Assembly: GCA_015143295.1 (NCBI GenBank)
Contig: CM026551.1
Span: 15,735,827-15,799,826 of the forward strand
Direction of reading: 5' to 3'
Source: Tetracentron sinense
Lineage: Eukaryota; Streptophyta; Magnoliopsida; Trochodendrales; Trochodendraceae
DNA length: 64,000 nt
In this document: positions 13,894 to 64,000 of the stretch, piece after piece
Position numbering within the stretch: the first letter of the stretch is position 1
Layout of the letters: each line of letters begins with the position of its first letter
The notes under the pieces: generated by a model
The model's database searches: none
Seen by the model: the letters and a program-made list of their open reading frames with translations, nothing else
What the model was told of the DNA's origin: nothing
Made by a program: the position numbers and the translations under genes

Positions 13894-13927
<34 letters not shown>

Positions 13928-39700: not shown

Positions 39701-42700
39701 AAAAAATTCTTACCTCATTAAAGTATCTTAAAAGAAGATTCTTAGTGACCCTCCCTATTCCAGAACCACAATCTGCAACAGTTTTGATTATTGATAAGAA
39801 TTCATAATGCCATTATATCCACAAATAAAGTAGCTTGTTTGATAAATTATTAAACATGTTCTCCAACTATAATTTAAACTAAGAAAAAGTGGATATAATT
39901 TCTCCCACTTAGAGAATTATTATTCAAGATCAAAGTTCAGAATCTCCAACCAGGTTGCATTGGGATCATATATTACATTGTGACAGTGTCATTTACACAA
40001 AAAGTAAAAAATGAAACACTTATTTTTTGGAAATGTTCTTCATAACTAGTCTCCAGAATGGCAGAATGATATAGACGGGTAAATATAGCCTGCTTGCCAA
40101 CCAATTTGTTACAATGCAAGCAGTGTAATGCAATAAGCCACTAAAATACCGTTTGTGCATCTAAAATATAATCCAGCACCCAGTACATTCATGCTGCAAT
40201 CCACTTATAGATAAATTCTATTATCAATCTTCTAAGTTGGAACCACATCATAATTCATAAATATATAATTAAACAAATTAGCTGTCTAGCTGAGTAATAA
40301 ATTGTTATCTAAAAATATGTGCATCAAGACAGGGACTCATACTTTCAAAAGCCCATTACAAAATTTTGTATGCAGTACAACTTTTGACATTTCTACAGTA
40401 CAACTTTTGACATTGTCAAAAATCCTTTCCTCGGAGAATGGGAGATCGGGTATGTCCTCTTATATGTATAGGTGACAATGTATAAGCAATGATTAGTAAA
40501 TTAAGATGAGCAATTTCCTTGGTTTTTCCTCCTTTCATTATTATAACAGCAATTTCTTCTTTCTTTCTCCTAAGAGAGCTTTGTTATTTATCCATAGAAA
40601 AAGAAGCCATGTCCTAGTTATTGTGGTCAGCTACACGAATCCTATTCTGCCATTGCACTAAATCAAGGGCCATAACTTTTGATAAAACACTAGTCTTCAA
40701 ATATTTTCATGGCCAACTCAATCCATATTATTTTGAATTTCCATGTGCCATTTAGAGCCTTCTTTTCTTTTAAATTTCCACGTGTCATTTAGAGCCTACT
40801 TTTACTTAATTTTTACATCTATTAGTGGGTTAGTAGTTAGTCGTAAGGGGACTTACAAGACTATCGCCTCACTGCATACGAACTCGAGCCCTGGCCTCCC
40901 AAAATAGGATTATGCTACTTGCCATCCGAACGGCATGGCACTCCTCACTACCTCCTTCATTAGTCTTTGTTGCCCTTGCACATGACCTAACCATCTTAGT
41001 CAACTCTCCTTTGTTTTACCACTTAATTGAGCTACTCCTAGGATATTCTCATGCTCTAATTTCCGAGTATCTTTCCAAATCTAGCAGCTCATTCGTTTCA
41101 AGTTTCAACATCCTTATCTCGGCTCCGCTTATTCTATGAGCATGTTTCTTGGATGTCCAAATTTCTGCTCCATAAATGTGGTGCAGTCTTATCAGAAATT
41201 CAGAATATAATGAGTTAAATGGTGATGCTCCTGCAATTTTGGATTTTCTTGCTAAAAACGTGACGAATGTCGTCATAAGACACTTGAAACATGATAAACA
41301 GGAATATGTTGCCCAAGACAGACATTCGATTTGTAACACCTAGATAGTCTGATATCTATTGAACACTTACTTATTCCACCATTAGTTTATGTTGTTAGTA
41401 TATTCTAATTGTATAGAGAGATCGTAGGGATTCTAATTTAGGATCCGAATATTTAGTTTCCTTATTTAATTCTTGATTGTAATCTATATATTGATACCTC
41501 CTTGAGAGAAGAATATACAACTTTTCTAATTCTTCCTAAATACCCTTCTGTCATGGTATCAGAGCGGTAAAATCCTGTGCTTTTTTTTTTTTTTTTTTTT
41601 TCTCCTCTGCCACCGATCTGTTGTTGAGGAACACAGCCACTGATCTGTTGTTATAGTCACACTCGGGGCATCTCGTCATCTCAGCACCACCGTCTACCTC
41701 TCGGCTCCACCACCAGTCCCTCTCGGCATCTCTCGTTCATATCGGCATCTCTCGTCCAGCCCCTCGACATCTCAGTTATATCGTGAATATTTTTCTCGTG
41801 CATTTCTCATCTTTTTTTAATACCATGGGAGACAAATCTGAACCCAAGGATTCTCTTTTTTCCGGGTCAATGACTAGTATCAAATTGAAGGGCCCCAATT
41901 ACCTTCAATGGTCTCGAGCTGTCTCCGTTTTTCTGAAAGCTCGTAGCAAGGCCTCTTATCTTACGGCCACCAAACCTTCTGATGTCACCAAAGTTCCTAC
42001 ATGGGAACAAGAGGATGCACAGATTATGACTTGGCTATGGAACAGCTTGGAACCCGAGGTCTTTAATAATGTCTCTTGTTTGGAATCCTCTAAGGATATT
42101 TGGAACACTCTGAAAGAGATGTATTCTTCAGATCAGAATATTTCTCGTCTCTACCAGTTATATCAGGATATGTTTTCTCTCCAACAGGGAGATCGCTCGG
42201 TTGAAGAGTATTTTTCTGCTCTCAAAGGTATGTGGCATGAAATTAATGTCTATCAGCCATTGTCTACAGATTTGAAGAAACAACAACAGCATCGGGAGGA
42301 ATTTCGAGTCGCCAAATTTCTATCAGGTCTTAAACCAGAACTTGCTCCAATCAGCTCTCAGATTCTATCCGGTAAAGACATACCAACTGTTAGTGAAACT
42401 TTTGCTCGAGTTCGGCGAGCATCTATCCATCCTTCTGCTCAAGAGAAGGATGATCGTTCTACTCTTACTGCCCCTGTTGGGCGATATGATACTCCTCATA
42501 GGGAGCATGGAGGCCGTGCTCCTCTCGATACTCGCGGTCGTGATCGTGGTGGTCGTAGTGGTAATAGTGGACGCGGTACTAGGAAATGTTCTCATTGTGG
42601 CCGCCATAATCACTCTACTGATTTTTGCTGGAAACTTCATGGCAAGCCGGCTTGGGCTAATCAGGCTACAGTTGAGGGGGAGCACTTTGGTTCTATCTCT

Positions 42701-45700
42701 GATGAACAAGTTCTTCTTTCAAAAACAGAGTATGATTCAATTCTCCAGCGCGCCAATGCCTCGTCATCCTCCACAACCCATTTGGTAGCTTCAGGTAACA
42801 CCTGTCTTCATTCTTCCTCTAGTACCCCTTGGGTTATTGATTCAGGGGCCTCCGATCATATGACAGGTAATCCATCTCTTCTTTCTAAAATTTCTCGTAC
42901 CTCATCTCCTTCGTTTGTTACTATCGCTAATGGGACTAAAACTCCTGTTCAAGGGATAGGCACCGTTAGTACTCCTGATCTTACTTTTTCCACTGTTCTC
43001 TATTTGCCTCAATTTCCTTTTAATCTGCTGTCTGTGCGCAAACTTACTCATGCTTTAAACTGTTCAATAATTTTTTATCCCACTCATTGTGTCTTTCAGG
43101 ATCTAAAGACGAAGAAGGTGATTGGAGGGGGATTTGAGCAGGATGGACTTTACTACTATCAGCCGTCTTGCACTTCGGGTCAATCTGCTCTTCATTCTAC
43201 AGCTTCTCCATATCAGTGGCACTGTCGTCTTGGACACCCATCATCGTTCAATCTTCGGCATTTAGTTCCTTCTTTACCTTCTTTTTCTAGTTTTAATTGT
43301 GAGACTTGTGAACTTAGTAAACATCATCGGGCTACTTTTCAACTTCGACATGATGAACCTTGTTTACAACCTTTTGAACTGGTCCACTCTGATGTTTGGG
43401 GTCCAGCTCGCACCACTGGTTTATGTGGTGCTCGGTACTTTGTCACTTTTATTGATGATCATTCTCGTTTAACATGGGTATATGTACTTAAAGATAGATC
43501 TCAAGTGTTTACAGCTTTTCAATCATTTTATGCTGAAATTTCAAATCAATTTAATGCCAAACTTCTTGCTTTTCGGACTGATAATGCTCTTGAATATAAA
43601 GAACGTTCGTTTGAACAATTTCTTGAGTCCAGGGGTATTATACATCAAACATCTTGTGTTCATACTCCTCAACAAAATGACATTGCTGAGAGAAAGAATG
43701 GGCCTATTCTCTCTATTGCTCGTGCTCTGATAATCCAAATGCATGTTCCTAAGCTTTTTTGGGGCGAAGCAGTTCTTACTGCTGCATTTCTTCTAAATAG
43801 AATGCCTTCACGTGTTCTTAAAGGTAAATCTCCGTTTCAGATGCTATTCCCTGGTAAAAACCCATTTCCTCTGCCCCCAAAAGTCTTTGGCTGTGTTTCT
43901 TTTACTCATAATCTAAATCCTGGTCGTGACAAACTTGACCCTCGGGCCCACAAGTGTATCTTTCTTGGTTATTCTCGTACTCAAAAGGGATACCGGTGCT
44001 ATAGTCCTACCTTATGTAAGTACTTTGTTAGTGCTGATATGACCTTCTTTGAGAATGTGCCATATTATTCTCCCGAAGGAGGTGAGTTCCAGGACCCTCT
44101 ACTTTCTGCTCCTGTTATCCCTACTATTGTTCCTGCTCTCTCTCCTATCTCTCAAGTTTATGTTCCTCGTCGGCCACGGAGCGCATCTCTTGCTCGAGTT
44201 CCTGCCCATGTGGGGTCCTCTCTACCGCTTCCCCCATCCACCTCGACGTCTGCAGATCCATCTCTCCCTCTTTCTGACTCGGACCTTGATCTTCCTATTG
44301 CAGTTCGTAAAGGTACGCGCACATGTACTGATCATCCTATCTCTAACTTTGTCTCATTTGATCATTTGTCTCCTTCCTTTAAAGCTTTTTCTTTATCCGT
44401 ATCATCTCTCGATATTCCTAAGTCCTACAGGGAAGCTCTTTCTCACCCGGGTTGGAGGAAAGCAATGGAGGAGGAAATGCATGCTTTAGATTTGAACCAA
44501 ACTTGGGATCTTATTCCTACACCTGCAGACGCTCCGATTGTTGGTTGTCGTTGGGTTTTCACCGTCAAACAGAATCCTGACGATACTGTAGACCGCTTAA
44601 AGGCTCGCCTTGTGGCTAAGGGCTTTACTCAGACATATGGCATTGATTACACTGAGACCTTCTCTCCAGTTGCCAAACTAAACTCTGTTCGTATTATTAT
44701 CTCTCTTGCTGCGAATCTTGCTTGGCCTCTTCATCAACTAGACGTCAAAAATGTCTTTTTACATGGTGATCTTACTGAGACTATTTATATGGCTCAACCA
44801 CCTGGGTTTGAGTCCAAGGGGGAGTGTGTTTGTCACCTTAAGAAGTCTATTTATGGCCTCAAACAGTCCTCACGTGCTTGGTTTGACAAATTCAGTAAGG
44901 CGGTAGTTTCTCATGGCATGACTCGAAGCCAAGCTGATCATTCAGTGTTCTTTAAGAAGACAAGAATTGGTATTGTGATATTAGTTGTCTATGTGGAAGA
45001 TATCGTCATCACTGGGAGTGACAAGGAAGGTATTCAGACCTTGATTCATCATCTCAACTCAAGTTTTCTCACTAAAGACTTGGGTAAGCTTCGTTATTTT
45101 CTCGGTATTGAAGTTGCAAGGTCCAAAGAAGGCATCAGTTTATCTCAAAGAAAATACACTCTCGATATTCTAAAAGACACAGGTTATCTTGGCTGCAAAC
45201 ATGTAGCTACTCCCATGGAAACTAATATAAAATTAATGCCGGATATGGGTGACTTGATTGATGACCCAGAAATGTATCGGAGACTTGTGAGTAAGCTTAT
45301 TTACCTAACCATTACTCGGCCTGACATTTCTTATGCAGTTAGTATTGTGAGCCAGTTCATGACTAGTCCTCGAGTTCCTCATATGGATGCAGTAATACGC
45401 ATCTTGAAGTATCTTAAGAGTGCCCCAGGCCGGGGCCTTCTATATCGGTCATCTGGACACCTTCGCATTGAAGGATATACTGATGCTGATTGGGCAGGAT
45501 CACCTTCAGACCGAAAATCCACCACTGGCTTTTGTACCTTTATAGGAGGCAATTTAGTCACTTGGAAAAGTAAGAAACAGTCAGTTGTGGCTCGTTCCAG
45601 TGCCGAAGCAGAATATCGTGCAATGGCTCATACCGTTTGTGAGCTTACTTGGTTGAGAACTTTTTTACAAGAATTCGGAATTTCAGCACAAGGTCCCACA

Positions 45701-46522
45701 CCGCTCTATTGTGACAATCAAGCAGCTATTCATATTGCTAGCAATCCTGTCTTTCACGAAAGAACCAAGCACATCGACTCTATTTGTAGCAAGCTGGGAG
45801 TTATTGATATCTACTCTCCAGCTTGAGGGGGAGTGTTGTTAGTATATTCTAATTCTATAGAGAGATCGTAGGGATTCTAATTTAGGATCCGAATATTTAG
45901 TTTCCTTATTTAATTCTTGATTGTAATCTATATATTGATACCTCCTTGAGAGAAGAATATACAACTTTTCTAATTCTTCCTAAATACCCTTCTGTCAGTT
46001 TATAACCACATTATTTCAAGAGACTGGAAATAACATGTAATCATCTATCTCTTTCTAGCTTCATCTAGCATCAATATGAAAAGAAATACTGATTAGCTGA
46101 TACTGTAACTTCCAATAACGTAACTGCGGGAAAGAGTGAGAGAGAGAGAGATGTACCGAGAGCAACGAGATGACGATTTGAAGCAGCGTCAGGAAAGCGA
46201 TCAGAGAGGAGGAATTTGAGAAAAGCTTCGCTGCCCTTCACGTCTGCGTCATTAACATGCCCATACCCACCCAATACCCCATCTAAGGACGCCTCAACAC
46301 CCTTTTCGCAATCACACAAAGAACAGAGATGAATCAGCTTTATTTTTTCAAAATGAATCATCATTTTGTAAATTTGAGGCAAAAAGAGGAGCTCACTTCC
46401 CAGTATCCGACGCCATTCCGGTACCATTCTTTCTTCTTTTGATCGTCTCCGATCTCTTCCCTCCACATCTCCTCTGCGTTCTTGAATTCACGACCGTCGT
46501 TATCTGACCCACCGGCCTCCAT
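22041..46522 (-). CDS. NTM1: Alpha-N-terminal protein methyltransferase (NTM1-like)
   Basis: Eight exons on the minus strand: 46522-46397, 46301-46157, 39772-39714, 31428-31309, 24466-24365, 23431-23377, 22721-22624, 22166-22041. Every junction is GT-AG and the phases (0,1,0,0,0,1,0) join cleanly into 276 residues, the usual length of this family. The enzyme uses S-adenosylmethionine to methylate the alpha-amino group of proteins whose N terminus, after Met removal, begins X-Pro-Lys/Arg. Visible motifs: NGVGYWEGVEAS-type opening, SAM motif LDCGSGIGR (residues 90-98), acidic VDLVEP (111-116), [12 protein letters not shown], and GFFVLKENI. An in-frame ATG 24 bases upstream is possible; I chose 46522 to match the family N terminus. 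Introns 2 (6.4 kb), 3 (8.3 kb) and 4 (6.8 kb) are full of transposons, yet no exon is damaged. Likely cytosolic or nuclear. Confidence 0.93.
24600..25045 (-). pseudogene. LINE endonuclease remnant in intron 4
   Basis: Minus-strand codons from about 25020 to 24790 include [17 protein letters not shown] followed by [10 protein letters not shown], typical of the C-terminal part of a plant L1 endonuclease. A frameshift is needed just upstream to join FTWLNF. A long (TA)n run at 24709-24746 disrupts the lower end. The 5' part lies beyond the solo LTR at 25053-26130. Confidence 0.65.
25053..26130 (-). mobile_element. Solo LTR nested in LINE
   Basis: GATGT flanks both sides (25048-25052 and 26131-26135). 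On the minus strand the LTR starts TGTTGGGCTTGGCC; its far end reads CTGGGCT rather than a clean CA, so that terminus is mutated or slightly misplaced. The middle looks like an LTR leader and no internal coding remains. It splits the LINE remnant on either side, so it is younger than that LINE. Confidence 0.5.
26136..28440 (-). pseudogene. Degenerate LINE ORF1-like region in intron 4
   Basis: Minus-strand reading gives broken segments such as a tryptophan-rich GGPWEFYKW-like stretch near 27.9 kb and [21 protein letters not shown] near 27.8 kb. They recall the N-terminal domain of plant LINE ORF1 (DUF4283-like). [10 protein letters not shown] stretch near 27.0 kb could be the remains of a zinc knuckle. 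Many frameshifts and stops. The order, ORF1-like then endonuclease, fits one minus-strand LINE. Confidence 0.45.
28464..30879 (+). mobile_element. Ty3/gypsy-type solo LTR in intron 4
   Basis: It begins TGTAACGACCCGGAATTTTA and ends GGTGTGACA, termini typical of del/Tekay-type gypsy LTRs. AGGGG follows at 30880-30884, and the same five bases occur at 28458-28462, one G before the LTR start; this suggests a duplication with one base of uncertainty. No internal region remains, so it is a 2.4-kb solo LTR. It contains a degenerate minisatellite (about 29440-30150). Confidence 0.7.
29440..30150. repeat. Degenerate minisatellite in the solo LTR
   Basis: Roughly 20-30 bp units of the type TGTCAGAGGTGTT followed by CCTGACAG are repeated with many variants. 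Both TGTCAG and its reverse complement CTGACA occur in each unit, so each unit can form a small hairpin. Confidence 0.7.
32085..32185. repeat. Three tandem ~35-40-bp repeats
   Basis: Copies of AGACATTGTATTCTTCACTT with CCCTAAATGC follow one another in intron 3 of the methyltransferase gene. No further function is visible. Confidence 0.7.
32580..33052. mobile_element. Non-autonomous hAT-like element
   Basis: The left end AGGCTGTCAATGGATCGG and right end CCCGTTGACATCCCT are inverted, and match the CAGGG-TGTCAA-type ends of plant hAT elements. The interior is AT-rich with repeated CGGATCGGATTCGGAT motifs near each end. An 8-bp target duplication (TTGTTACT against TGATTACT) is only approximate. 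Confidence 0.5.
33600..35610 (+). pseudogene. Relic hAT transposase in intron 3
   Basis: In order: a BED zinc-finger-like start (WEHCTMV near 33630, RIKHHL-like near 33730), a DUF659-type segment at 33877-34380 with [15 protein letters not shown] and [20 protein letters not shown], a [15 protein letters not shown] stretch near 34430, FATCFLT near 35040, and [19 protein letters not shown] with FLNPREHYD at 35360-35450. Several frameshifts and stops separate these parts, and about 440 bp of unrelated DNA interrupts it near 34.57-35.00 kb. It cannot encode an active transposase. It lies antisense to the host gene. Confidence 0.75.
34565..35005. other. Foreign insert within the hAT relic
   Basis: The transposase reading stops near 34565 and resumes near 35005. 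The sequence between looks richer in G+C than its surroundings and holds overlapping short open frames I do not recognise. It has no visible transposon termini. An organelle-derived insert is possible but unproven. Confidence 0.35.
36000..38700. other. Intron sequence, nothing recognised
   Basis: AT-rich intron 3 sequence. A cluster of AATAATTCG motifs near 37.2-37.44 kb is repetitive. Short open frames at 36006-36332 and 38368-38667 match no family I know. Confidence 0.4.
38880..39580 (+). pseudogene. LINE fragment
   Basis: The plus strand reads [16 protein letters not shown] near 38.9 kb, like the ORF1/ORF2 boundary of plant L1 elements. [20 protein letters not shown] near 39.43 kb resembles the GDFN motif region of an L1 endonuclease with Asp changed to His. 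Stops and gaps make it a relic. It ends about 130 bp before exon 3 of the methyltransferase. Confidence 0.45.
41390..41553 (+). repeat. 5' LTR of the copia element
   Basis: 164 bp, beginning TGTTGTTAGTATATTC and ending CCCTTCTGTCA. Identical to the 3' LTR except for one G/C difference near its start. Confidence 0.95.
41554..41565 (+). other. Primer binding site (tRNA-iMet type)
   Basis: TGGTATCAGAGC lies directly after the 5' LTR and is the usual plant copia priming site for initiator methionine tRNA. Confidence 0.9.
41825..45826 (+). CDS. Copia Gag-Pol polyprotein (1333 residues)
   Basis: Single open frame in copia order. The gag domain (~1-240) has [18 protein letters not shown]; the CCHC knuckle is at ~255 ([14 protein letters not shown]). 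The protease DSGA motif is near 339. The integrase has an HHCC region from ~465 and catalytic positions near 522 (Asp), 584 (Asp) and 621 (Glu). The reverse transcriptase (~890-1130) has LDVKNVF near 971, and RNase H starts near 1218 (TDADWAG). Two oddities: the RT box reads YVED at 1056-1059 where the family has YVDD, and the C-terminus jumps from HERTKHID directly to [15 protein letters not shown], so the stretch normally between them is missing in frame. The frame is intact but activity is doubtful. The start is the first ATG; the frame opens 14 codons earlier without one. Confidence 0.92.
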   Translation: MGDKSEPKDSLFSGSMTSIKLKGPNYLQWSRAVSVFLKARSKASYLTATKPSDVTKVPTWEQEDAQIMTWLWNSLEPEVFNNVSCLESSKDIWNTLKEMYSSDQNISRLYQLYQDMFSLQQGDRSVEEYFSALKGMWHEINVYQPLSTDLKKQQQHREEFRVAKFLSGLKPELAPISSQILSGKDIPTVSETFARVRRASIHPSAQEKDDRSTLTAPVGRYDTPHREHGGRAPLDTRGRDRGGRSGNSGRGTRKCSHCGRHNHSTDFCWKLHGKPAWANQATVEGEHFGSISDEQVLLSKTEYDSILQRANASSSSTTHLVASGNTCLHSSSSTPWVIDSGASDHMTGNPSLLSKISRTSSPSFVTIANGTKTPVQGIGTVSTPDLTFSTVLYLPQFPFNLLSVRKLTHALNCSIIFYPTHCVFQDLKTKKVIGGGFEQDGLYYYQPSCTSGQSALHSTASPYQWHCRLGHPSSFNLRHLVPSLPSFSSFNCETCELSKHHRATFQLRHDEPCLQPFELVHSDVWGPARTTGLCGARYFVTFIDDHSRLTWVYVLKDRSQVFTAFQSFYAEISNQFNAKLLAFRTDNALEYKERSFEQFLESRGIIHQTSCVHTPQQNDIAERKNGPILSIARALIIQMHVPKLFWGEAVLTAAFLLNRMPSRVLKGKSPFQMLFPGKNPFPLPPKVFGCVSFTHNLNPGRDKLDPRAHKCIFLGYSRTQKGYRCYSPTLCKYFVSADMTFFENVPYYSPEGGEFQDPLLSAPVIPTIVPALSPISQVYVPRRPRSASLARVPAHVGSSLPLPPSTSTSADPSLPLSDSDLDLPIAVRKGTRTCTDHPISNFVSFDHLSPSFKAFSLSVSSLDIPKSYREALSHPGWRKAMEEEMHALDLNQTWDLIPTPADAPIVGCRWVFTVKQNPDDTVDRLKARLVAKGFTQTYGIDYTETFSPVAKLNSVRIIISLAANLAWPLHQLDVKNVFLHGDLTETIYMAQPPGFESKGECVCHLKKSIYGLKQSSRAWFDKFSKAVVSHGMTRSQADHSVFFKKTRIGIVILVVYVEDIVITGSDKEGIQTLIHHLNSSFLTKDLGKLRYFLGIEVARSKEGISLSQRKYTLDILKDTGYLGCKHVATPMETNIKLMPDMGDLIDDPEMYRRLVSKLIYLTITRPDISYAVSIVSQFMTSPRVPHMDAVIRILKYLKSAPGRGLLYRSSGHLRIEGYTDADWAGSPSDRKSTTGFCTFIGGNLVTWKSKKQSVVARSSAEAEYRAMAHTVCELTWLRTFLQEFGISAQGPTPLYCDNQAAIHIASNPVFHERTKHIDSICSKLGVIDIYSPA
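45824..45833 (+). other. Polypurine tract of the copia element
   Basis: A purine run, GAGGGGGAG, overlaps the polyprotein stop and ends directly before the 3' LTR, the usual site for plus-strand priming. Confidence 0.8.
45834..45997 (+). repeat. 3' LTR of the copia element
   Basis: 164 bp, with one mismatch to the 5' LTR, and followed directly by the GTTTA target duplication. Confidence 0.95.
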
Positions 46523-52077: not shown

Positions 52078-52120
52078 AAGCGAAACCCTTTCATAGACAC
52101 AAAAAAGATAGACTAGAAAA

Positions 52121-53737
52121 ATGAGGACTTCAAGCTCTGCAATGATTTCCCTACTTTATATCCTTCTCTTCTCAGTTTCATTGGCAACTTCAAATACAGT
52201 TCATGAAAACTTTCTCCATTGCCTTTCCCTCCATTCTTCCCCCTCTGCACCGGTCTCCACCGTCATCTACACCCCCACTAATTCTTCATATGAATCTATC
52301 TTCGAATCTTCGGCACGAAACCTCCGATTCTTGTCGTCGTCTACCACCAAACAACCTAAGCTTATCTTTACACCGTCGCATGAATCCCAAATCCAAGCTA
52401 TTGTTATATGTTCTAGGAAACATGACATCCATATCAGAATCCGAAGTGGAGGCCATGACTATGAGGGCCTTTCATATGTATCTGATGTCTCATTTGCCAT
52501 TGTTGACCTCGTAAATATTCGATCCATCAGTGTCGACACACAAGATGAGAGTGCATGGGTTCAGGCGGGTGCAACTATTGGCGAAGTTTATTATAGAATC
52601 GCAGAGAAGAGCATGACCCTTGGCTTTCCCGCAGGGATTTGCCCTACTGTCGGCGTTGGTGGCCTATTCAGCGGAGGCGGTTATGGTAACATGGTGAGAA
52701 AATACGGCCTCGCAGGCGATAACATCATTGATGCTCACTTGGTTGATGTTAATGGCAGAATTCTCAACAGAGAATCCATGGGAGAAGATCTCTTTTGGGC
52801 CATCACAGGAGGAGGAGCAGCCAGCTTCGGAGTCGTCGTTTCTTGGAAAATCAAGTTGGTTCATGTTCCATCAACTGTGACTGTTTTCACAATTGCCAAG
52901 ACTTTAGAACAAGGGGCAACAGAACTTGTTCATAGGTGGCAATTCGTCGCAGATGAGATCCATGAAGACCTCTTCATCAGAGCTGTCCTAGAAGTTGCGA
53001 ACGCCAGTAGTACGGGGGAGAAGACAGGTAGAGCTTCATTTATCTCTTTGTTTCTTGGGAATACTGACAAACTTCTCCCACTGATGGAAAAGAGCTTCCC
53101 CGAATTGGGTTTAGAGCGCACGGACTGTATAGAGATGAGTTGGATCGAATCGGTCCTTTATTTTGGTGGCTTCTCAAATGAAGAATCAATGGATGTTTTA
53201 CTCAACAGAAGTTCTCCATCAAAGAACTTTTTCAAGGCAAAATCAGACTTTGTCAAAGAACCCATTTCTAAAATTGGTCTGGAGGGCATATGGAAAAGGT
53301 TTTTGGAAGAAGAGACACCTATAATGAGACTGAGTCCTTATGGTGGAAGGATGAATGAAATTTCAGAGTCAGAAACTCCTTTTCCACATAGATTGGGAAA
53401 CAAATACATAATTCAATACATGTTGATATGGGAAGAAGAAGGAATTGAAGCATCTGAAAGGCATATAGGTTGGATGAGAAGGCTTTACAGTTACATGGCT
53501 CCTTACGTTTCCAAGTCCCCAAGGGCTGCATATCTCAACTATAGGGATCTTGACTTGGGTACCAACAATAATGGAAATACAAGCTACTTACAAGCTAGCA
53601 TTTGGGGTACAAAGTATTTTAAGAACAACTTCAACAGGTTAGTACATGTGAAGACCAAAGTTGATCCAGGTAATTTCTTCAGAAATGAACAAAGCATCCC
53701 CTCTCTTCCATTGCGGAGGAAGAAAAAGAGGGAGTAA
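52121..53737 (+). CDS. Berberine bridge enzyme-like FAD oxidase
   Basis: Intronless, 538 residues, the usual length. A signal peptide (1-~24) sends it to the secretory route. The FAD-binding domain has RSGGHDYEG with His112 and GICPTVGVGG with Cys174, the two residues that attach FAD bicovalently in this family. The C-terminal BBE domain has SPYGGRM and [10 protein letters not shown], the latter being the catalytic-tyrosine region in cannabinoid-synthase-like members. Such enzymes oxidise alcohols, sugars, monolignols or alkaloids and release hydrogen peroxide; the substrate cannot be told here. After Cys174 the usual GGH is GGL (Leu182). The gene is the left arm of an inverted duplication with a broken partner downstream. 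Confidence 0.93.
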   Translation: MRTSSSAMISLLYILLFSVSLATSNTVHENFLHCLSLHSSPSAPVSTVIYTPTNSSYESIFESSARNLRFLSSSTTKQPKLIFTPSHESQIQAIVICSRKHDIHIRIRSGGHDYEGLSYVSDVSFAIVDLVNIRSISVDTQDESAWVQAGATIGEVYYRIAEKSMTLGFPAGICPTVGVGGLFSGGGYGNMVRKYGLAGDNIIDAHLVDVNGRILNRESMGEDLFWAITGGGAASFGVVVSWKIKLVHVPSTVTVFTIAKTLEQGATELVHRWQFVADEIHEDLFIRAVLEVANASSTGEKTGRASFISLFLGNTDKLLPLMEKSFPELGLERTDCIEMSWIESVLYFGGFSNEESMDVLLNRSSPSKNFFKAKSDFVKEPISKIGLEGIWKRFLEEETPIMRLSPYGGRMNEISESETPFPHRLGNKYIIQYMLIWEEEGIEASERHIGWMRRLYSYMAPYVSKSPRAAYLNYRDLDLGTNNNGNTSYLQASIWGTKYFKNNFNRLVHVKTKVDPGNFFRNEQSIPSLPLRRKKKRE

Positions 53738-53983
53738 AGATAGCATGGTTGTTTGATTGTAGAAAAAAAAAAGTTATTCATGGACATTACTAAATATATT
53801 TCTTATTATAGTGTTGACATAATAGAGGATGGTTTGTTAAAGATCTGTGTAGTGGTTCCCACTCAGTATTTATTTTATTTTTCTCCTTTTTCTTACTAAA
53901 TTAAAGCTTTTGTTTTGTTTATATTTCTTTCATTTTGTCTGTTTCTTAAATTCTTTTTAATCAGGTAAGAAAGAAAAGATTAA

Positions 53984-54534
53984 TTGGGAGATCCAGAAAA
54001 AAACAAATTCTAGTAGAAGCCTTGCCTAGAAATCTTTAATTAGGCACTTAAAACTTAGGAAAACTACCTAAATGACCCTATGGTATATTCCAAGTACATA
54101 AGTGACCTATGAAAATTCAACTTAACTTTTATAACCCCGACATGTGAAAACAGTTACATGTGAGGAAATTTCATTTTCTTTGGACCATATACCCCTAATA
54201 TGAGGTTAATAGGCAAAGGTAAAAGTGAATCAAATTGCAGAGATTCCCAAGCCACAATCATGATCAACAACATACCTAAGGTAGGTGCTTTCTTTCTCTC
54301 GTGCACTTTTTTTCCTTTGGAAGGAACAGACAGAGACAACTTTCCAGAAACATTAGCAAATCACGAAGATATCAATGACCACTCTTAAAGACCTCTATTT
54401 TTTTTTTAGATTTTCTCCGGATGTCCTAATCTTCAATACAACTAGATGAGAAAGGGATCCGGGCAAGCTTGTTGATTAAATCATCTACTAATTCAATAAT
54501 TCAAAGAAGAAGGTACATACTCTGGATCTCCTGT
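53984..54534. other. Spacer of the BBE inverted duplication
   Basis: Unique sequence between the two arms. Its centre (CTATGGTATATTCCAAGTAC and following) resembles common plant repeat sequence, but I recognise no gene or element ends. Confidence 0.4.
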
Positions 54535-54763
54535 TAATCTTTTCTTTCTTACCTAAGAAAGAAGGATTTAAGAAATAAACAAATTGAAAGAACTATAAAC
54601 AAAACAAAAGCTTTAATTTAATAAGAAAAAGGAAAAAAAATAAAATAAATATTGAGTGGGAACCACTACACGGATCTTTAACCAACCATCATTTTATATT
54701 TCAACACTATAATAAGAAATATATTTAGTAATATCCATGAAGAACTTATTTTTGTTTCTACAT

Positions 54764-56451
54764 TCAACCAACCATGCTACTCCCCTCTTTTCTTCCTCCA
54801 CAACAAGAAAAACCAGAACTCGCAAATTTTCCGTCGGTAATAGGCACTTTTTTTTTCCCTAGTGACAATGGAAGAGGAGGGATGCTTTGTCCATTTGTGA
54901 ATGTGAAGAAATTACCTGGATCAACCTTGGTCTTCACATTTACTAATCTGTTAAAGTTGTTCTTAAAATACTTAGTACCCCAAATGCTAGCTTGTAAGTA
55001 GCTTGTATTTCCATTATTGTTGGTACCCCAGTCAAGATCCCTATAGTTGAGATATGCAGCCCTTGGAGACTTGGAAACATAAGGAGACATGTAACTGTAA
55101 ATCCTTCTAATCCAACCAATATGCCTTTCAGATGCTTCAATTCCTTCTTCTCCACAGGCCACAATGTATTGAATTACGTATCTGTTCCCCCAATCTATGT
55201 GGAAAAGGAGTTTCTGACCCTGAAATTTCACTCATCCTTCCACCATAAGGACTCAGTCTAATTGCAGGTGTATTTTCTTCCAAAAGCCTTTTCCATATGC
55301 CTTCCAGACCAATTTTAGAAATAGGTTCTTTCACAAAGTCTGATTTTGCCTTGAAAAAGTAGCTTGATGGAGAACTTCTGTTTAGTAAAACATCCACTGA
55401 TTCTTCACTTGAGAAGCCACCAAAATAAAGGACCGATTTTATCCAACTCATCTCTATACAGTCCTTGCGGTCTAAACCCAATTCAGCGAAGCTCTTTTCC
55501 ATCAGTCGGAGAAGTTTGTCGGTATCCCCGATAAACAAAGAGGCAAATGAAGCTTTAATTGTCCTCTCTCCCGTACTACTGGCGTTTGATGAAAAAGCTC
55601 TGGTTCTCTACTACTGGAGTTGTCTTCATGGATCATATCTGCAATGAATTGCCACCTATGAACAAGTTCTGTTGCCCCTTGTTCTAAAGTCTTAGCAATT
55701 GTGAAAACAGTCATTGTTGGAGGAACAAGAACCAATTTGATTTTCCAAGAAATTACAACTCCAAAGCTAGCTGCTCCTCCTCTGATGGCCCAAAAGAGAT
55801 CTTCTCCCATGGATTCTCTGTCGAGGATTCTGCCATTAACATCAACTAAGTGAGCATCAATGATGTTATCGCCTGCGAGGCCATATTTTCTCAACATGTT
55901 ACCATAACCGCCTCCGCTGAATAGGCCACCAACGCCAACAGTAGTGCAAATCGCTGATGGAAAGCCAAGGGTCATGCTTTTTTCTGCAATCCTATAATAA
56001 ACTTCGCCAATAGTTGCACCGGCCTGAACCCATGCACTCTCATCTTGTGTGTCAACACGGATGAATCCAAGATTTACGAGGTCAACAATGGCGAATGGGA
56101 CATCAGATACATATGAAAGGCCCTCATAGTCATGGCCTCCACTTCGGATTCTGATATGGATGCCATGTTTCCTAGAGCATATAACAATAGCTTGGATTTG
56201 AGATTCATGCGATGGTGTGAAGATAAGCATAGGTTGTGGGGCGGTAGACCGTGACAAGAATCTGAGGTTTCGTACCGATGGATAGATTCATATGAAGAAT
56301 TATTGGGGGTGTAGATGACAGTGGAGATTGGTGCAGAGGGAGGAAAATGGAGGGAAAGGCAGGGGAGAAAGTTGTCATGAATTGAATTTGAAGTTGTCCA
56401 TGAAACTGAGAAGAGAAGGATATAAATTATTGCATAGCTTGAAATCCTCAT
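54764..56451 (-). pseudogene. BBE-like oxidase pseudogene, inverted copy
   Basis: Starts MRISSYAI at 56451 and follows gene 1 closely, keeping RSGGHDYEG and ICTTVGVGG. Three breaks are visible. A 7-bp deletion near 56280 falls just after SSYESI. A rearranged stretch near 55560-55640 falls after MIHED. One extra G in a G-run near 55186 lies in HRLG. The last piece restores the frame to KVDPGNFF and runs past the gene 1 stop. With these breaks no full-length enzyme is possible. It is convergent with gene 1. Confidence 0.9.
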
Positions 56452-56862: not shown

Positions 56863-57117
56863 TCCTATTGATTAAGCTTTATTAACTCTTAAGAGCATTC
56901 CTAGCAGCCTCACCAAATTTGCCTCATCAAAATAGCCAAAACTCACAAAAAGTCCTGCTCGTGAGCCACTTTTTTAAAACACTCCTATTAGGCTCTCCAA
57001 AATAGTTAAAACTATCATTATTTTATTATTTGTGTCACTTCCACAATTACAAAAAACAAAAGGAGAGTGAAACCTTTTGTAGGGGGTATTTTGATCTTTG
57101 AAGAAATGGGGTTTACT

Positions 57118-57640
57118 GCAACCTCAATCTAGCCTAAATCTGATATCCAGACCGTTCTAAATTGAGTTATTTTTGGAAGAAATGATTCAAAGAACACAAG
57201 AAAGAAAAAGGAGAAAATAAGGAAATGATTCAGAGGGAGAGAAGAAAGAACGATGAAGAAAAGTAGTGACAGAATGTTTTTTCTTGATGAATCCTTTACT
57301 TTCTCTCTCTGTAAATTCTTTTAAAAAAATCTGGTTGTTCTTGGGAAATCTTCTGGGAACTCAAGGAAAGTCTCTCCTCATCAACAAGGAGGGGTCACCT
57401 CTATTTATAGGTGATTATCAAAATTGTAACCAACTTGTACAGCTGTCATAACCGTTTTTGTAACCGACTTTTAGAGAGAAAATATTGGATTCCATCAAGA
57501 TAAAGGCGTTTTGTCACCATACCTCCTTTAAGCTTTTATGACCAAAGCTTTCAGATATTTTCTTCAAAGGTTAAAAGCGGTATTCATAATATCCATCTTT
57601 TAACAAATTCTATCTAAGCCCTCCAAACCACAACTCATCA
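57118..57640 (-). repeat. Probable 3' LTR of the gypsy element
   Basis: On the minus strand it starts TGATGAGTTGTGG right after the polypurine run GGGGGAGGA, and has a clear TATA box CTATAAATAG at 57410-57401. The end near 57118 is a guess from a TG/CA terminus. The second LTR lies outside the window, so it cannot be checked here. Confidence 0.55.
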
Positions 57641-57649
57641 TCCTCCCCC
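57641..57649 (-). other. Polypurine tract of the gypsy element
   Basis: GGGGGAGGA on the minus strand, directly before the TG that starts the LTR. Position and composition fit plus-strand priming. Confidence 0.6.
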
Positions 57650-57810
57650 AAAAGCAATTGGTAACTACACCGTGAAGGCGGGTCATACGCTTTCATGGTG
57701 TACTGTCCTGCTGAGGTAATATATTAGTGTTCAGACAGCAACACTCCTCTAGAGTAATAATCATGATAGTATTAATAATAACGATGATGATAATCATCTA
57801 ATAATCATCT

Positions 57811-58230
57811 CAAGTCCAATAGGGAAATCATAGGTGTTGGACGAGGACACCCTTCCCGTAACTCAGGTCCAATAGGGAAATCATAGGTGTTGGACGAGGA
57901 CACCCTTCCCGTAACTCAGGTCCAATAGGGAAATCATAGGTGTTGGACGAGGACACCCTTCCCGTAGCTCAGGTCCAATAGGGAAATCATAGGTGTTGGA
58001 CGAGGACACCCTTCCCGTAACTCAGGTCCAATAGGGAAATCATAGGTGTTGGACGAGGACACCCTTCCCGTAGCTCAGGTCCAATAGGGAAATCATAGGT
58101 GTTGGACGAGGACACCCTTCCCGTAACTCAGGTCCAATAGGGAAATCATAGGTGTTGGACGAGGACACCCTTCCCGTAGCTCAGGTCCAATAGGGAAATC
58201 ATAGGTGTTGGACGAGGACACCCTTCCCGT
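57811..58230. repeat. Eight 53-bp tandem repeats
   Basis: Units start at 57811, 57864, 57917, 57970, 58023, 58076, 58129 and 58182 and read nearly identically (AATAGGGAAATCATAGGTGT and so on). From unit 2 onward the junction alternates CGTAACTC and CGTAGCTC, so the array grew as 106-bp dimers. The last unit ends in CCCGTCAGG. It lies in the 3' untranslated part of the gypsy element. Confidence 0.95.
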
Positions 58231-58464
58231 CAGGCCTTAAGAGAAACTGAGGAAAAATCCATCCTCAATGCTTTCTCCCTGACTGTCAGCCCAGGAAGTA
58301 ATCCATGCTTCACTGGAATAGGTAATGAGGGGAAACAGCCACACTCATTCCCACGGGGAGGTACCAATCCATATCGTTCACCCCTGGCAAAACAAATCTC
58401 CTTTCTGGCAGAAGTCCTCAGAAAGGCATACAAGGAGGGTACAAATCTATACCACACCCATCAT

Positions 58465-58700
58465 CATAAGAAAGGCGTTGTAAACCAGAGCGAGGCACTG
58501 AAGTCATATAGAATATCCGAAGGCGTTGAAGTCTGAATCAACATCAAAGGCGTTAAAGCTTGAAACAATATCCAAAGGCGTTAGAGCCTGAAACAATATC
58601 CAAAGGCGTTAGAGCCTGAAATGATATCCGAAGGCGTTAGAGCCTGAAATGATATCCGAAGGCGTTAGAGCCTGAAACAATATCCAAAAAGCGTTAGGAC
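58465..58700. repeat. 28-bp tandem repeats
   Basis: Units of AGGCGTTAGAGCCTGAAACA followed by ATATCCAA recur every 28 bp (for example at 58576, 58604 and on), with more diverged units at both edges (GGCGTTGAAGTC, GGCGTTAAAGCT). The array is independent of the 53-bp array next to it. Confidence 0.85.
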
Positions 58701-59299
58701 TTGAATCTGTGCCAATAGCGTGAAAGGCGCAATAGTTTCATCTTTCATTAGTGACATAAGGGTAAAATTGTCATAAATGAGCAGAAAATCCTTTGTATGA
58801 ACTAAAAACATAAGAGCTTAAAATCATTGATCATTAATGACTAGAATCATTTTTATCAGATAAACATGGAATTCTGTTAACCAATTCCCGAAAGGATTTT
58901 AGTATGTGTAATATGCTAGAACGTCCTTTGAGCCACGTGTCATTATTTTATTGAATTATGAACAACGTTCTTAAATTCAAAATTTCACAAATCAAACTTT
59001 TCAATAACCATCATCAACATTTTAGCCCCCTGTCTGTGAAGGCGCTTTTAGGCCTAATCTTACTCTAAAAGCGTCTGAGCAGACAAACCATCATGACAAA
59101 AGGAGTTCATTAAATAATATACTATCATAAATTTGGCGTCTGAAAGAAACGTCTTTTCGGATCCTGCTTAAAATAGTTTTGCCACATTTATAGCCAATAA
59201 GATCATGTAGCCAGCCTGTCAAAGTCATTATGATCGTACCCCTTTTTTTTGAATTTTGAATCAAAACGTGCTCCTTGGAAACCGCATATCATAAATGTT

Positions 59300-59762
59300 T
59301 AATCATTATAAAAGCAAATAATCAGTTCTTTATTGTTTTACTGTTCATCTTCTTCTTCGTGCAAGCATACTTTGAGGTTTTTATCTTTCCTCTGTGCTCG
59401 TGTTTTCATTGATCTTATTGTGGTTTTCAAGGATCTTCAATCTTTATTTGGATTTCCAGGACATCTTCTTAGAATTCTGGTGAGTCTTTGCTTCCTTACT
59501 TTTTTGTTTATCATTTCTATTTGATTGCTCATACTTATGCTTGCTGTTTTTTTTTTATTATATTATTTTTCGTCATTGTAGAAATTTTGATCATCTGTAA
59601 ATTATGTCATTTTATCTACTTTTTATTCTTTTATTGTTGTTATTATATGTATGTTACTGTTTTTTTTTTTTTTGTTTCATCATTCATTTTCATCACCATT
59701 TTTTTTTTAGAATACACTGTAATTTATTTATTTTTATTTCTGCAACTTTTACGCTTTCAGCT
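59300..59762 (+). promoter_or_regulatory. Promoter and 5'UTR intron of the PMD gene
   Basis: A TATA-like TTATAAAAGC lies near 59305. A leader follows with a good donor (TTCTG|GTGAGTC at 59480) and an acceptor after a T-rich tract (CGCTTTCAG ending 59760), two bases before the start codon. This suggests a spliced Pol II gene with its own promoter. Inferred from signals only. Confidence 0.5.
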
Positions 59763-62700
59763 ATGGCATCTTCTTCTCAAAAAAATATTTTAAGTAACGA
59801 ATTTTGGGATTCAGCTATGCATCATTCCTGGGATACCGCTGTTCCTCCAGATGGATGGTCATTGCCCTATGGTGACATCGATGGAACTAAAGGATTTTGT
59901 CCACCTCCTTTTGCTACTACTATGTTCAGAATAGAAAGAAAAGATTTCACGCTTTCTCAGGTTAATTTTAGTTCTCACAGCGGTTGTACCAAGGAGTGGA
60001 CAGCTTGGTGTGATTATATACTCACTCACCCAGAGTATGGGCCAAAACTTCATGCAGCTGAGATTTTTAAAGCTATAGAGCTTTCGAAGGATTTTGAGAT
60101 TAGGAAAGATACAGATAGTTTATCTCAGTTAGTTACTAGGTGGAACAGTCAAACTCACACTTTTATTACTTCATGGGGAGAAATCACCCCTACTTTGGAA
60201 GATGTGATGGCGTTATGGAGATTACCCGTTTTCGGGAATAATGACATACAAGACATTGTTTTGAGTAGAGAAGAGATAAAAGCGTCAAGACTTTTGCATG
60301 CTCTGGTTTGGGAATCGAGAGTAAATCCAGTTTGGGGAGCTTCAAAGGAGTCTCATGCAAGGCGGCCAAATTTCTACGGCTGGGTACGCTATTTCTTCAG
60401 GGAGAAAGGTCCTGTGAACAAAGAGACAGGAGTCAGAGACTATCAATATGGAAAGGAGTACAAGTCTCCTTTAGAGTTGACAGCGTTCATCTGCATGTGG
60501 CTGTCTAGATATGTCTTTGAAGGCGCTCCTACTGACAAAGTTTTGGATAGATTATTTCCATTGGCTTTCCGCCTAGCTGACGGTCAGAGTTTCCCTCTTG
60601 GAATTTATTTTTTGGGAACTTTATACAAGAATTTAGATCAAATCCATAAGTGTCAGGCCTGGTCAGCAGGTTCTTTTCTCATAGAATCATTTGTTCATAC
60701 CGCTTTTCTTCAAATGTGGTTATGGGAACGTTTTCCCGGTTATGCGCCTTCAGCTAGGCAGTTTTCTCCTTTGCAACCTGATGATACCGCTGTTGAAGAT
60801 CTCCCAAGTCCAAGGGCATGGCGGTGGAGTAGTATTGCCAGAAAGAAAGATGCGTTGATCTTTGACTTTATTGACAAGGAGAAATGCTTCTGCTTCAGAC
60901 CTTACATTGAGCTTTCAAGAGGTATTGAAAGATTCTTTTATCATTCTGAGGAGCCTTTATCTTTCATAGGCATGAGTACTGAGGAGAGAGCAGAAGTTTC
61001 TTTGAAGGATCTTCACTGTTTTGCCATTTTGTCCAAGTGTCATTTGGTCGGTTTATACAGCGTTGATGGCGGTAAAACCAACAGTTTCTGCCTTGAATCT
61101 TACAATCCTGATCGGTGTCTGAGGCAGTTTGGGCTTGATCAAGGCGTTCCGGATGGTACAGCTGAATCTTTTTCTCTAAAGAGAACCATGAAGGCTTTCA
61201 TTCTGGAAAGTTGGTCCTTAAACTTAAGGCCATCTGTTGCTGGTTTTTACTTGGCTGGGGAGCATAGGACAGGTAGATGTACGAAGAACTACCAGCTTTT
61301 CTGGAAAGCTTGCATTGCTACCTTCAAAACCTTTGTTCAGGGTCCGCCAATGCTCAGTCAAACTGTTAACCTGGCTATGGACAAAGAGAAATGTCTGAAA
61401 GAGCCCCCTGGTGCAGGCAAGAAAAGGAAAGCGGTAGCTTCTCCTCACAAGAAATCTAAATCGAAACCCGCTGTTGGAGGTTCTTCAGAAATCCGAGAGG
61501 AAAACATTACTCCCCAACCTGTAATTATTACTGCTCCAAAGGCGGCTACTCCAAGAGCGCCTAGAATCAAAAAAATTGCAATAAAAAAGAAGGCACCTCC
61601 TTCTAAGAAACGAAAGAGCCAATCAGTAAGCAAACAATTTTATAATTAAAGCATTTTTCTTATTCATACGCTTTTCAATTTCTCATTTGCATAATTTTTG
61701 TTACTTATATATATTATTTTTTTTTATCTATCACAGGATCCTTCTTCTGATAGCGAAGATAACGAGCCTTTGATTGTGCGCAAGCAGAATCTTCAGACTT
61801 AACATGAGTTAGGAAGAACTGAGGCTTCTGTCACTCAGGAAAAAAGCACAGCACCGCTTTCGGATGTTGGTGCAGGGAGCTCTGGAACTCCAACTACTCC
61901 AGTGGGACTCAGCATCCCTGAAGATAATGTTGCCGATATTCCTTTCCCTCCATCGGCGGAAGCAAGAGTACAAGTTGAGAATTTGGCCAATGTTTGGCCT
62001 GAGAGTGAACCTAGTTCCTCTCCGCTTTCTAAAAAGAAAGATCAATCTGCTAAAGCTTCTGGTGTTCGGAAAACTGCAAATCCTGCCAGAACTATTGACA
62101 TAGCCAGAGCGTTAACATCTCTGAAGAGAATGAGATCGCAAGCTATCAAGGCGAAGTCGCTTCTTCAGCAAAGGACAGCGCAATCTTCATCACCTCTTAT
62201 GATTGACGCTATTGATGATTCTGAGAGCGTAGGTTAGTAGCAGTTTAAAAAGTATTTCATCAATATTCATGCTTATATGCTTATCATTACAATCATTATA
62301 GTGCTCTAACAGTATGTTTTATTTTGAAGGCCCTTCTGAAAGCGTTCAAGCTGAAATACCAGAAAACATTGCTCCTGCAACAGTTGAGGTCTTTTCTGAT
62401 GATCTTCCCAGAGACAAAAACGCTGTTGAGGCTGAAGTGCATAATTTTTTTGATGAAAGAGCTTCTGGAGTTGAAACCTCAGAACAGCTTATGGATGTGG
62501 ACCCTCCTTCAGCCAGTGAGATAGCCTTTTTCTCTTCTGTGGTTCAAAACTCTGAGCAGCAGCCTTCTGAAGATCTTCCTGTAATCATATCAGAAACTTC
62601 TACTCCTCTTGACAACACTTCTTCTGTTGGTAAAAGCGCTCACACACCGATATCTTCAACTGAGAACATCAATGTTCAAACGATTGCTTCTACTGAAAGC

Positions 62701-63510
62701 GTTATCATCGGCTTTCCAGAACAGTTTGTTGAGGAGGAGAATATTAATGCTGAAACTGAAGTTGCTCCAAGAAGTATTCATGAAGATACTTCAGTCATTG
62801 GTTCCAGTATGGAGACCGCTTCTTCAGAATTGTCCGCTTTTGTGGGAATTTTTGTGAGTGAGGATGCTATTACTCCTTCCACTTCAACTGCGCTGACACC
62901 AACTGATTCCTCGGATGAAATTTTAAGGCGTTATCCTGTATCTGAAAGCTCTCTTCCTTTATGGTCAGAAATAGTAAAGCGTTACAAGGATATAACTTCC
63001 TCTTGTTCTTTGAAGAACCCTATCATCAGGGCGGGCTGTATAGAAACAGTGTGCTCTATCATTCGGAACATCAGAGATATCAAGCCTCATCTTACGCCTT
63101 TGAGGATGAAGACCTTTGAGGATTGGGGGCAGGAGCTGAAGGAGTTAGAGGATATTAATGTTAATGTGAAATGGTTAACAGATTTTCTGAGTAGTCTATC
63201 TGTTACATTTTTTCAAGCCAAGAGCTTTGCCAGGCTGAATAGCTCCTACAAAAATAAAGTGGTCAAAGCGGAAGAAATCAAGAAAGCGATATCAAACGAT
63301 CAAGATAATATTCATATGATTCGTCAAGAGATTGCCCGCCATCAAGCCATATTGGAAGAAAAAGAAAAAGGAATAAAAGCTGCTCAAGATAGTCTGTCAG
63401 TTCTACAAGAAGAGATCAAAGCAGATCATGAAGAATATATTCGTTTAAAAGCTTCTGCTGAAAGACTTGTATATCTGAATGAGAGAGGCTTTACTGCTGA
63501 CATTTTGTAA
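59763..63510 (+). CDS. Plant mobile domain (PMD) protein, premature stop
   Basis: Exons 59763-61625, 61737-62232 and 62330-63510 (GT-AG, phases 0 and 1) would encode 1179 residues. Residues ~15-420 form an aminotransferase-like plant mobile domain (SNEFWDSAMHHSWD, WGEITPTLEDVMALWRLPVF, ELTAFICMWLSRYVF). A basic stretch with KKRKAV and KKSKSK follows, then a Ser/Thr/Glu-rich region and a coiled coil near the C-terminus. Despite the old domain name it is not an enzyme family; PMD proteins are linked to transposons and gene silencing. The 22nd codon of exon 2 is TAA (61800-61802); the frame then stays open, so one base change is the likely cause and a 642-residue product would keep the PMD. It lies antisense in the gypsy element, tail to tail with the integrase, 78 bp apart. 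Confidence 0.8.
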
Positions 63511-63587
63511 AAGCTTTTTCTTTATTCTTTTGTAACTCTTGTGAAATTTCATATGAATACAAAAGGAAAATTTTGTTACTTTTCTTA

Positions 63588-64000
63588 TTAAGCATAGTAC
63601 TTTTTTAACCATTTTACATTGATAGGATCATGTAATACTTCACCAGATAGTGTAGACAAAAGACAATAACCGCTGTCATAACTTTGTCTTATCAAAAATG
63701 GCCCTTCCCAATTAGGAGTAAACTTTGCCACTTTTGTACCATTCCTGATATGAATAGCTGTTCGAAGGACCAGGTCACCCTCCTTTAGAATTCTATGTCG
63801 TACTGCTTTGTCATACGCTTTAGCAACTCTTTTTTGATACGCTTTTGTCTTTATAGCTATAGCTTCACGCTTTTCATCCATAACTTCTAGCTGAGCTAAT
63901 CTAGTAGCTTGGAGGCATGCCTCTTCTCCATCAAATACTTCAATTCTTGTAGATGGTATCTTAACTTCCAGAGGTACAACGGCTTCTGTCCCATATACTA
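63588..64000 (-). CDS. Ty3/gypsy integrase C-terminus (partial)
   Basis: Open from the window edge to a TAA at 63588-63590. It reads VYGTEAVVPLEVKIPS, then EGDLVLRTA, NWEGPFLIRQSYDSGYCLL and VKWLKKYY, the typical end of gypsy integrase: the tail of the catalytic core and the GPY/F-like module. The catalytic triad itself lies outside the window. No stop is seen, so this part of pol may be intact. Confidence 0.85.
   Translation of the reverse strand, partial: VYGTEAVVPLEVKIPSTRIEVFDGEEACLQATRLAQLEVMDEKREAIAIKTKAYQKRVAKAYDKAVRHRILKEGDLVLRTAIHIRNGTKVAKFTPNWEGPFLIRQSYDSGYCLLSTLSGEVLHDPINVKWLKKYYA

Follow-up and report, generated by a model that had tools for sequence, protein, structure and literature searches.

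What might a retrotransposon do with a protein-coding gene that it carries on its opposite strand? The question is raised by the right end of a 64,000-nucleotide stretch of Tetracentron sinense DNA (the window; C1:15735827–15799826, in a genome of 1.16 Gb), whose gene and element content fits a flowering plant. The window locus is a 5'-truncated copy of a multicopy Ty3/gypsy retrotransposon of the Tat lineage, with its sense on the minus strand. The 3' part of this element lies in the window, where an accessory gene for a plant mobile domain (PMD) protein sits antisense between pol and the 3' long terminal repeat (LTR). Both antisense genes and PMD genes have been described before in gypsy elements. 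The feature that we describe here, a short motif (RAVRGCG) dispersed through the element, had not been seen in a preliminary description of this DNA made from the sequence alone, and we found no report of such a motif for gypsy elements with PMD genes among the listings and passages of open-licence papers that were consulted.

A k-mer scan of positions 58700–64000 found AAAGCG 20 times, counting both strands, against 4.4 expected. Of the trinucleotides that occur 20 times or more in the element (arrays left out), GCG/CGC ranked first in the information content of its flanks (2.02 bits, median 0.21): A stands at position -3 in 60 of its 76 occurrences, and C at -1 in none of them. The pattern RAVRGCG is present at 44 sites (26 plus, 18 minus) between 57502 and 63874, as counted in 57117–64000; 37 of these fall outside a 28-bp tandem array in the LTR, and the other 57 kb of the window hold 9. 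Dinucleotide shuffles of the whole window predict 30.6 sites, of which approximately 3.3 would fall within the element and 27 outside it, and third-order resampling of the element itself gave a mean of 13.2 and a maximum of 23 in 500 trials. The sites are found in the U3 region of the LTR, in the exons and in pol. Coding sequence holds 26 of them, whereas 2000 synonymous shuffles that keep amino acids and codon usage average 6.4 and never exceed 13. When halves were held out, 34 of 53 and 20 of 23 GCGs fitted the motif, versus 39 and 43, respectively, of the 356 GCGs elsewhere in the window. Non-motif GCG is about equally frequent in the element and outside it (5.7 and 6.1 per kb), which indicates that motif sites were added and are not survivors of CpG loss. 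Within the window LTR, all 13 sites lie upstream of the LTR TATA box (57404–57409, minus strand) and none in the 331 bp downstream; the 28-bp array (58512–58697) has 7 sites in 6.6 units, and a 53-bp array has none.

A genome search with the PMD exon gave 303 first-look candidates, the 40 scored being 96–100% identical, and ten other copies (c0–c9) were fetched. In the pol of copies c2, c3 and c8, outside the stretch in which the motif was discovered, 9–10 sites are present against null means of 2.0–2.2 (0/1000). As these copies are nearly identical across gag-pol (c3 and c8 100%, c3 and c2 99.5%), their pol and gag counts amount to one test, not three. The LTRs of four copies carry 5.4–7.3 sites per kb. 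Between the window element and one subfamily, 93 of 112 sites are conserved, the highest rank among 35 equally shaped patterns (median 0.58), over seven comparisons that are mutually dependent.

The motif is also present in a divergent family (L059 and L060), whose PMD is 34% identical to that of the window and whose DNA has no match to exon 1. L059 has 24 and L060 16 sites in 3.8 kb. Both the PMD piece of L059 (11 sites vs 2.4) and its integrase piece (11 vs 3.0) exceed the synonymous null (0/1000 each), and its pol lies antisense to the PMD gene as in the window element. Since L059 and L060 are 80% identical in DNA and form one family, a comparison of motif form was run again without L060, on L059 plus its downstream stretch, the latter being included in the L059 counts that follow. 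The letter before GCG is G in 39 and A in 10 cases in L059, against 12 G and 32 A in the window family (P 4e-7), and A follows GCG in 18 of 53 and 2 of 46 cases, respectively (P 3e-4). The motif is thus shifted between the families. As controls, a copia element has no site in 4.6 kb, the host-like PMD gene L067 has none in 2 kb, and background sequence has 15 in 82 kb (0.18 per kb).

The antisense gene itself encodes a protein (P0001) in which the PMD (PF10536) is recognized at E 2.9e-47, with 162 bits against a cut-off of 34.9 and a match to profile positions 2–346 of 347. In comparisons of the window copy with a subfamily that differs by approximately 13% in DNA, the PMD shows a dN of 0.045–0.056 and a dS of 0.66–0.72, and hence a dN/dS of 0.06–0.08 (5 pairs, from 5 of the 8 loci of this one subfamily). 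For the third exon, dN/dS is 0.11–0.13 in the tail and 0.38–0.39 in the linker (3 pairs, from 3 of the 10 copies). The antisense gene is under purifying selection, and the low dN/dS indicates that the protein is what selection maintains.

Behind the PMD, basic KKRK/KKSK stretches at codons 553, 563 and 615 resemble nuclear localization signals. The preliminary description had reported a long coiled-coil tail as part of a fusion that it did not recognize. The tail is present, and the fusion partner is PEARLI-4-like (PF05278; E 8.7e-8, 32.5 bits against a gathering score of 29.9, over part of the 234-position profile). Stripped of the coiled coil, this segment scores 28.4 bits (E 1.6e-6), slightly below the gathering score; the match in copy c0 reaches 34.6 bits (E 1.9e-8). 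A C-terminal helix is predicted at residues 298–384 of P0002, with a mean pLDDT (predicted local distance difference test) of 83–95 per block from 311 to 390. A search of solved structures gave nothing convincing (best E 0.72), and no paper containing both 'plant mobile domain' and 'pearli' was found among the open-licence papers searched. DUF1985, a domain of VANC proteins, was absent from P0001, L067 and L052 at E 10. Another PMD protein of this genome (L068 752–1423, minus strand; C14:19197000–19198999) has a sub-threshold DUF1985 match (E 0.0034), and a search for DUF1985 gave 558 first-look candidates in this genome; a distant relationship between PMD and DUF1985 is possible.

The gene belongs to the element, as the preliminary description had supposed: pol lies on the minus strand in the flank of the window, and in 10 of 10 fetched copies integrase and pol, encoded on the other strand, come after the PMD exons. 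The ten copies were, however, picked by their PMD exon. The LTR with its arrays lies on the other side of the PMD gene in 9 of the 10, c9 retaining the inner part only. Among the matches listed, 6 of 8 same-strand LTR pairs 12–16 kb apart enclose a PMD match; the remaining two have no PMD among those matches, their sequence not having been read.

Taken together, these observations suggest to us, at a confidence evenly poised between belief and doubt, an element whose antisense PMD-PEARLI gene encodes a protein that, itself or through a partner, binds the dispersed RAVRGCG sites of its own element and keeps the element expressible. By analogy with the VANC system of VANDAL transposons, the PMD-PEARLI protein would enter the nucleus and, alone or in a complex, bind the RAVRGCG sites of the element that encodes it. 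The coiled coil would assemble clusters of protein over U3 and the antisense promoter, and the bound protein would counter silencing or control both promoters, as VANC does on VANDAL. A VANC-like reading is suggested by a protein that looks nuclear and is under strong selection, and by a dispersed motif that varies between families with different PMDs. Being antisense, the gene would keep its introns in the genomic RNA, and they would survive retrotransposition; only mRNA made from the gene's own promoter would be spliced.

A broader version, which we put forward tentatively and would sooner doubt than believe, is that PMD-bearing gypsy elements in general run a system of self-recognition, in which antisense-encoded PMD-PEARLI proteins bind RAVRGCG-type sites throughout their own element, even in coding sequence, and shield it from silencing, while protein and motif drift together from family to family. 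If true, this would be the first molecular role for gypsy PMD proteins, with a possible link to the host PMD proteins that silence transposons. We know of no VANC-like system previously described in an LTR retrotransposon, and a self-recognition system of this kind would be the first. A common, conserved and family-specific cis motif gives a direct handle on the function of such proteins.

Several observations weigh against this self-recognition. The motif was defined post hoc, which the hold-outs and the second family counter without a prior hypothesis. The rest of the window lies below expectation (9 sites vs 27), so the contrast between element and rest overstates the excess. In a block control, 7001–14000 reaches 2.1 bits for GAG/CTC, equal to GCG in the element; this block, taken unmasked, contains CT microsatellites (13679–13926) that explain at least part of the signal. 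Enrichment is weaker in the gag of c2, c3 and c8, where 7 sites stand against a null of 2.4–2.6 and are reached by 8–13 of 1000 shuffles. Density is above background in four TRP28 loci (14 sites in 15.2 kb, approximately 0.9 per kb; 4 of 23 listed places), in the left genomic flanks of seven copies (8 sites in 11 kb, approximately 0.7 per kb) and in L068 (2 sites in 2 kb, approximately 1 per kb). These densities weaken but do not abolish the contrast with the 3–7 sites per kb of the elements. The two mutually unalignable element families covered both come from one genome, and in L059 the same patterns did not detect the 5' untranslated region (5'UTR) splice forms or the TATAAA box that the window family has. 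No Pfam domain besides the PMD was detected in P0001, and structure prediction for the PMD part gave an unusable model (mean pLDDT 33.7). Identity of RAVRGCG with the DOWN motif linked to MAIN/MAIL1 was rejected, as the motifs differ.

The main rival, in our view rather unlikely, is that a host transcription factor or chromatin protein reads the motif and that the PMD protein acts otherwise, for instance against MAIN/MAIL1-PP7L silencing. To our knowledge the PMD is not known to bind DNA, and the sites are dense in U3 ahead of the LTR TATA box and also close to the antisense promoter. Host PMD proteins do function in silencing (PMC5418596; PMC7156037). Such a factor does not readily account for sites that also fill the exons and pol, far from promoters, for their lower density in TRP28 loci of the same genome, or for a motif that differs between two PMD families within one host.

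That integrase or gag reads the motif, for tethering, packaging or target choice, would fit its extension through the whole element, gag-pol included, yet we judge this improbable: an RNA signal is hard to reconcile with sites on both strands, and few sites occur in the TRP28 loci, though these may lack pol.

The preliminary description had proposed a captured host gene with its own promoter whose antisense RNA damps pol expression. The TATA box and the antisense orientation favor this, and roles of double-stranded RNA are discussed in a review (PMC7264820). We nevertheless consider it very improbable, given that purifying selection acts at the level of the protein and that the gene ends before pol. 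The gap is 77 bp, and because the gene halts there, its mRNA would be complementary to the 3' region of the genomic RNA and not to pol. A recent capture is also at odds with the same arrangement in the divergent L059 and with the PMD-A clades, which are gypsy clades (PMC5418596).

Methylated plant transposons lose CpG, and the motif contains CpG, but a functionless mutational or compositional by-product such as CpG decay with protected contexts is hardly credible in view of the equal frequency of non-motif GCG in and out of the element, the excess over synonymous shuffles (window coding sequence, pol of relatives, L059) and the conservation of sites.

The closest known parallel to the proposed PMD-PEARLI self-recognition is VANC, an accessory protein whose target motifs are short, dispersed and arranged in tandem repeats. 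VANC21 binds YAGTATTAY, whereas VANC6 targets have other motifs, and methylation is lost across entire elements (PMC5735166). As in VANDAL, the window element combines an accessory gene with a short motif that is both dispersed and present in an array and that varies between families. VANDALs are Mu-like DNA transposons and VANCs are DUF1985 proteins with motifs in non-coding parts (PMC5735166), whereas here an LTR retrotransposon carries a PMD gene, the sites fill coding sequence too, and binding is inferred only. Ikeda et al. speculate that PMDs captured by Mutator-like elements are used for anti-silencing of transposable elements (PMC5418596), and a 2026 sunflower study raises the idea that retrotransposon open reading frames (ORFs) shape their own methylation, with VANDAL as example (PMC12844716).

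Gypsy-encoded PMDs form gypsy-only clades of their own (PMD-A), and host PMD-C proteins silence transposons; in the available text of this work on gypsy PMD-A and host MAIN/MAIL1, no cis motif is reported (PMC5418596), in contrast to the dispersed motif here. PMDs occur in gypsy elements of ten plant species, or of 40 without filter (PMC9289625), and in 57% of Ogre elements, which share with our element PMD extra ORFs and two RNase H domains, RH and aRH, ahead of the integrase (INT) (PMC6317226). Ogre gag-protease and pol ORFs lie 274 bp apart on average (PMC6317226); here they share one frame with a single stop codon between them. Retand/Tat-lineage elements are of Tat type like the window element, and in them too a long region that contains antisense ORFs separates pol from the 3' LTR; 97% of Retand/Tat clusters encode TRP28 in the antisense ORF (PMC11963269), in place of the PMD here. 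Their LTRs measure 315–1,194 bp, against 1.6–1.9 kb here, about half have tandem arrays, which in the window element lie inside the LTR, and the accessible parts of the paper make no mention of a dispersed motif (PMC11963269). Antisense genes with their own promoter are known in retrotransposons, and Grande gene23 likewise lies antisense between pol and the 3' LTR, has its own promoter and encodes a nuclear protein (PMC7264820). Proteins of the gene23 type have no clear similarity to others (PMC7264820), unlike the PMD with PEARLI-4-like tail found here.

The structure of the antisense gene, all on the plus strand, largely bears out the preliminary description. A TATA box is present at 59307–59312; TATAAA is found at a similar distance in L052, L055 and L057, whereas the divergent L059 has just a TATATA variant. 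A 5'UTR intron follows (59480–59760, 58% T), and all 10 other copies carry its splice signals. Coding exon 1 (59763–61625) contains the PMD at approximately 60063–61304, as well as the basic stretches. Exon 2 spans 61737–62232, and exon 3 (62330–63510) encodes a variable linker, the PEARLI-4-like segment (approximately 62929–63414) and the C-terminal coiled coil. The introns between the three coding exons are GT-AG with compatible phases, and their splice-site sequences are present in 10 of 10 other copies. Plant introns are usually T-rich; T content is 42–58% in the introns, 25–30% in the coding exons and 49% in the 5'UTR exon. At 682 codons, the open frame far exceeds what chance would give, the longest in 1000 resampled sequences being 243. 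A sigma-70 promoter scan was uninformative, as it is not designed for plants.

Seven of the 10 other copies keep the exon 1 frame open (a length change affects c7, and stops interrupt c8 and c9) and all 10 keep that of exon 2, while exon 3 has 402–416 codons in 8 of 10 (380 in c7, 157 in c4). The window copy has an in-frame TAA in exon 2 (61800–61802), a stop seen in none of the ten; both this stop and the truncation of the copy had been missed previously. If the gene is spliced as drawn, the product of the window copy would comprise the PMD and the basic stretches without the tail. Exon 3 is only approximately 80–90% like that of the window in eight copies (c0, c3–c9) and 98–99% in c1 and c2; in c0, c3 and c8 the LTR or pol is 99–100% like the window despite the divergent exon 3. 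The copies have the look of mosaics in which subfamilies have swapped exon 3.

With regard to the element, the integrase tail reported on the minus strand was confirmed: the 3' end of pol occupies 63588–64000, with its stop at 63588, and the ORF extends beyond the window to 66365 (window numbering). In the flank (L009), the minus-strand ORF 63591–66365 contains an RNase H, a second RNase H, an H2C2 zinc finger and an integrase core; the order of profiles, RT_RNaseH, RVT_3 (aRH type), H2C2 and rve, is the same in copy c3. A second RNase H (aRH) between RH and INT is a trait of the angiosperm Ogre and Retand elements of the Tat lineage (PMC6317226), and it is present here. TRP28, the antisense ORF typical of Retand, had no match in P0001 at E 0.1, and the spacer between gag-protease and pol that is an Ogre trait was not found in c2, c3 and c8. 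In these three copies, a 5' ORF (802 codons) and a 3' ORF (1250 codons) share one frame; in c3 the former encodes gag and an aspartic protease and the latter reverse transcriptase (RT), RH, aRH and INT. The single stop between them (L013 5132–5134 in c3, likewise in c2 and c8) looks as if the downstream ORF were expressed by read-through.

The window copy breaks off within gag at approximately 67.9 kb (window numbering), and its pol frame is open only to 66365. Extending the sequence into the flank, the check that had been proposed earlier, thus found pol on the minus strand; the next 25 kb rightward yielded no gag start, primer binding site (PBS) or 5' LTR, in agreement with a truncated copy. 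Two LTRs, a target site duplication (TSD), a putative polypurine tract (PPT) and gag-pol with INT after RT-RH are all found in the relatives, the window copy being without its 5' end. Compared with 14 tRNA ends (14 of 20 tRNA loci retrieved, including four Arg loci, three of them tRNA-Arg(TCT)), the PBS matches best at 9 of 15 letters, and an exact 22-nt PBS match in the genome was not called a tRNA by ARAGORN; tRNA-Arg is the primer expected of Ogre elements. Searches for relatives in viral_contigs and genome_contigs gave nothing useful.

The 3' LTR spans 57078–59019 (minus strand, 1942 bp, TG..CA), as established by comparing left and right LTRs of other copies. Their matches span 1572–1856 bp in seven copies (c1, c2, c3, c5–c8) and terminate in CATCAACA in six, two letters earlier in c2; on this basis the window LTR extends to 59019 and both arrays lie in its U3. 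These statements rest on 7 of the 10 copies, as c0 and c4 have no second LTR within the 10 kb taken and c9 has a partial LTR match. The arrays reported in the preliminary description were confirmed, the 53-bp array at 57809–58230 (8 copies) and the 28-bp array at the position given above. Its LTR of approximately 520 bp was wrong, as was its PPT: the candidate LTR of 524 bp with a PPT at approximately 57641 was dropped, since that PPT falls inside the true LTR. A putative PPT adjoins the LTR end at about 59020–59035 (minus strand). LTR pairs are 96.9–99.9% identical in the seven copies, and several insertions are therefore young; exact 5-bp TSDs flank six of them (c1, c3, c5, c6, c7 and c8), c2 being left out because its end is shifted.

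Other features of the window and its flank were recorded in passing. A piece of a different gypsy pol, 37% identical to that of the element, lies at approximately 87331–87723 (L031, window numbering). Positions 41390–45997 hold a full-length Ty1/copia element with 164-bp terminal repeats that are 99% alike, a single frame of 1389 codons with gag, integrase and RVT_2, and no RAVRGCG site. Two genes for berberine-bridge-type oxidases form an inverted repeat at 52112–56287 with arms 83–93% complementary; the gene on the plus strand has an open frame of 541 codons, that on the minus strand is broken into fragments, and a third stretch at 1–229 is 74% similar. Degenerate tandem repeats of 18–96 bp with a TCAG-GTGTT-TCCTG theme are present at 29444–30004, and two inverted repeats resembling miniature inverted-repeat transposable elements, with arms of 112–116 bp that are 93–95% complementary, at 4202–4521 and 6679–7001.

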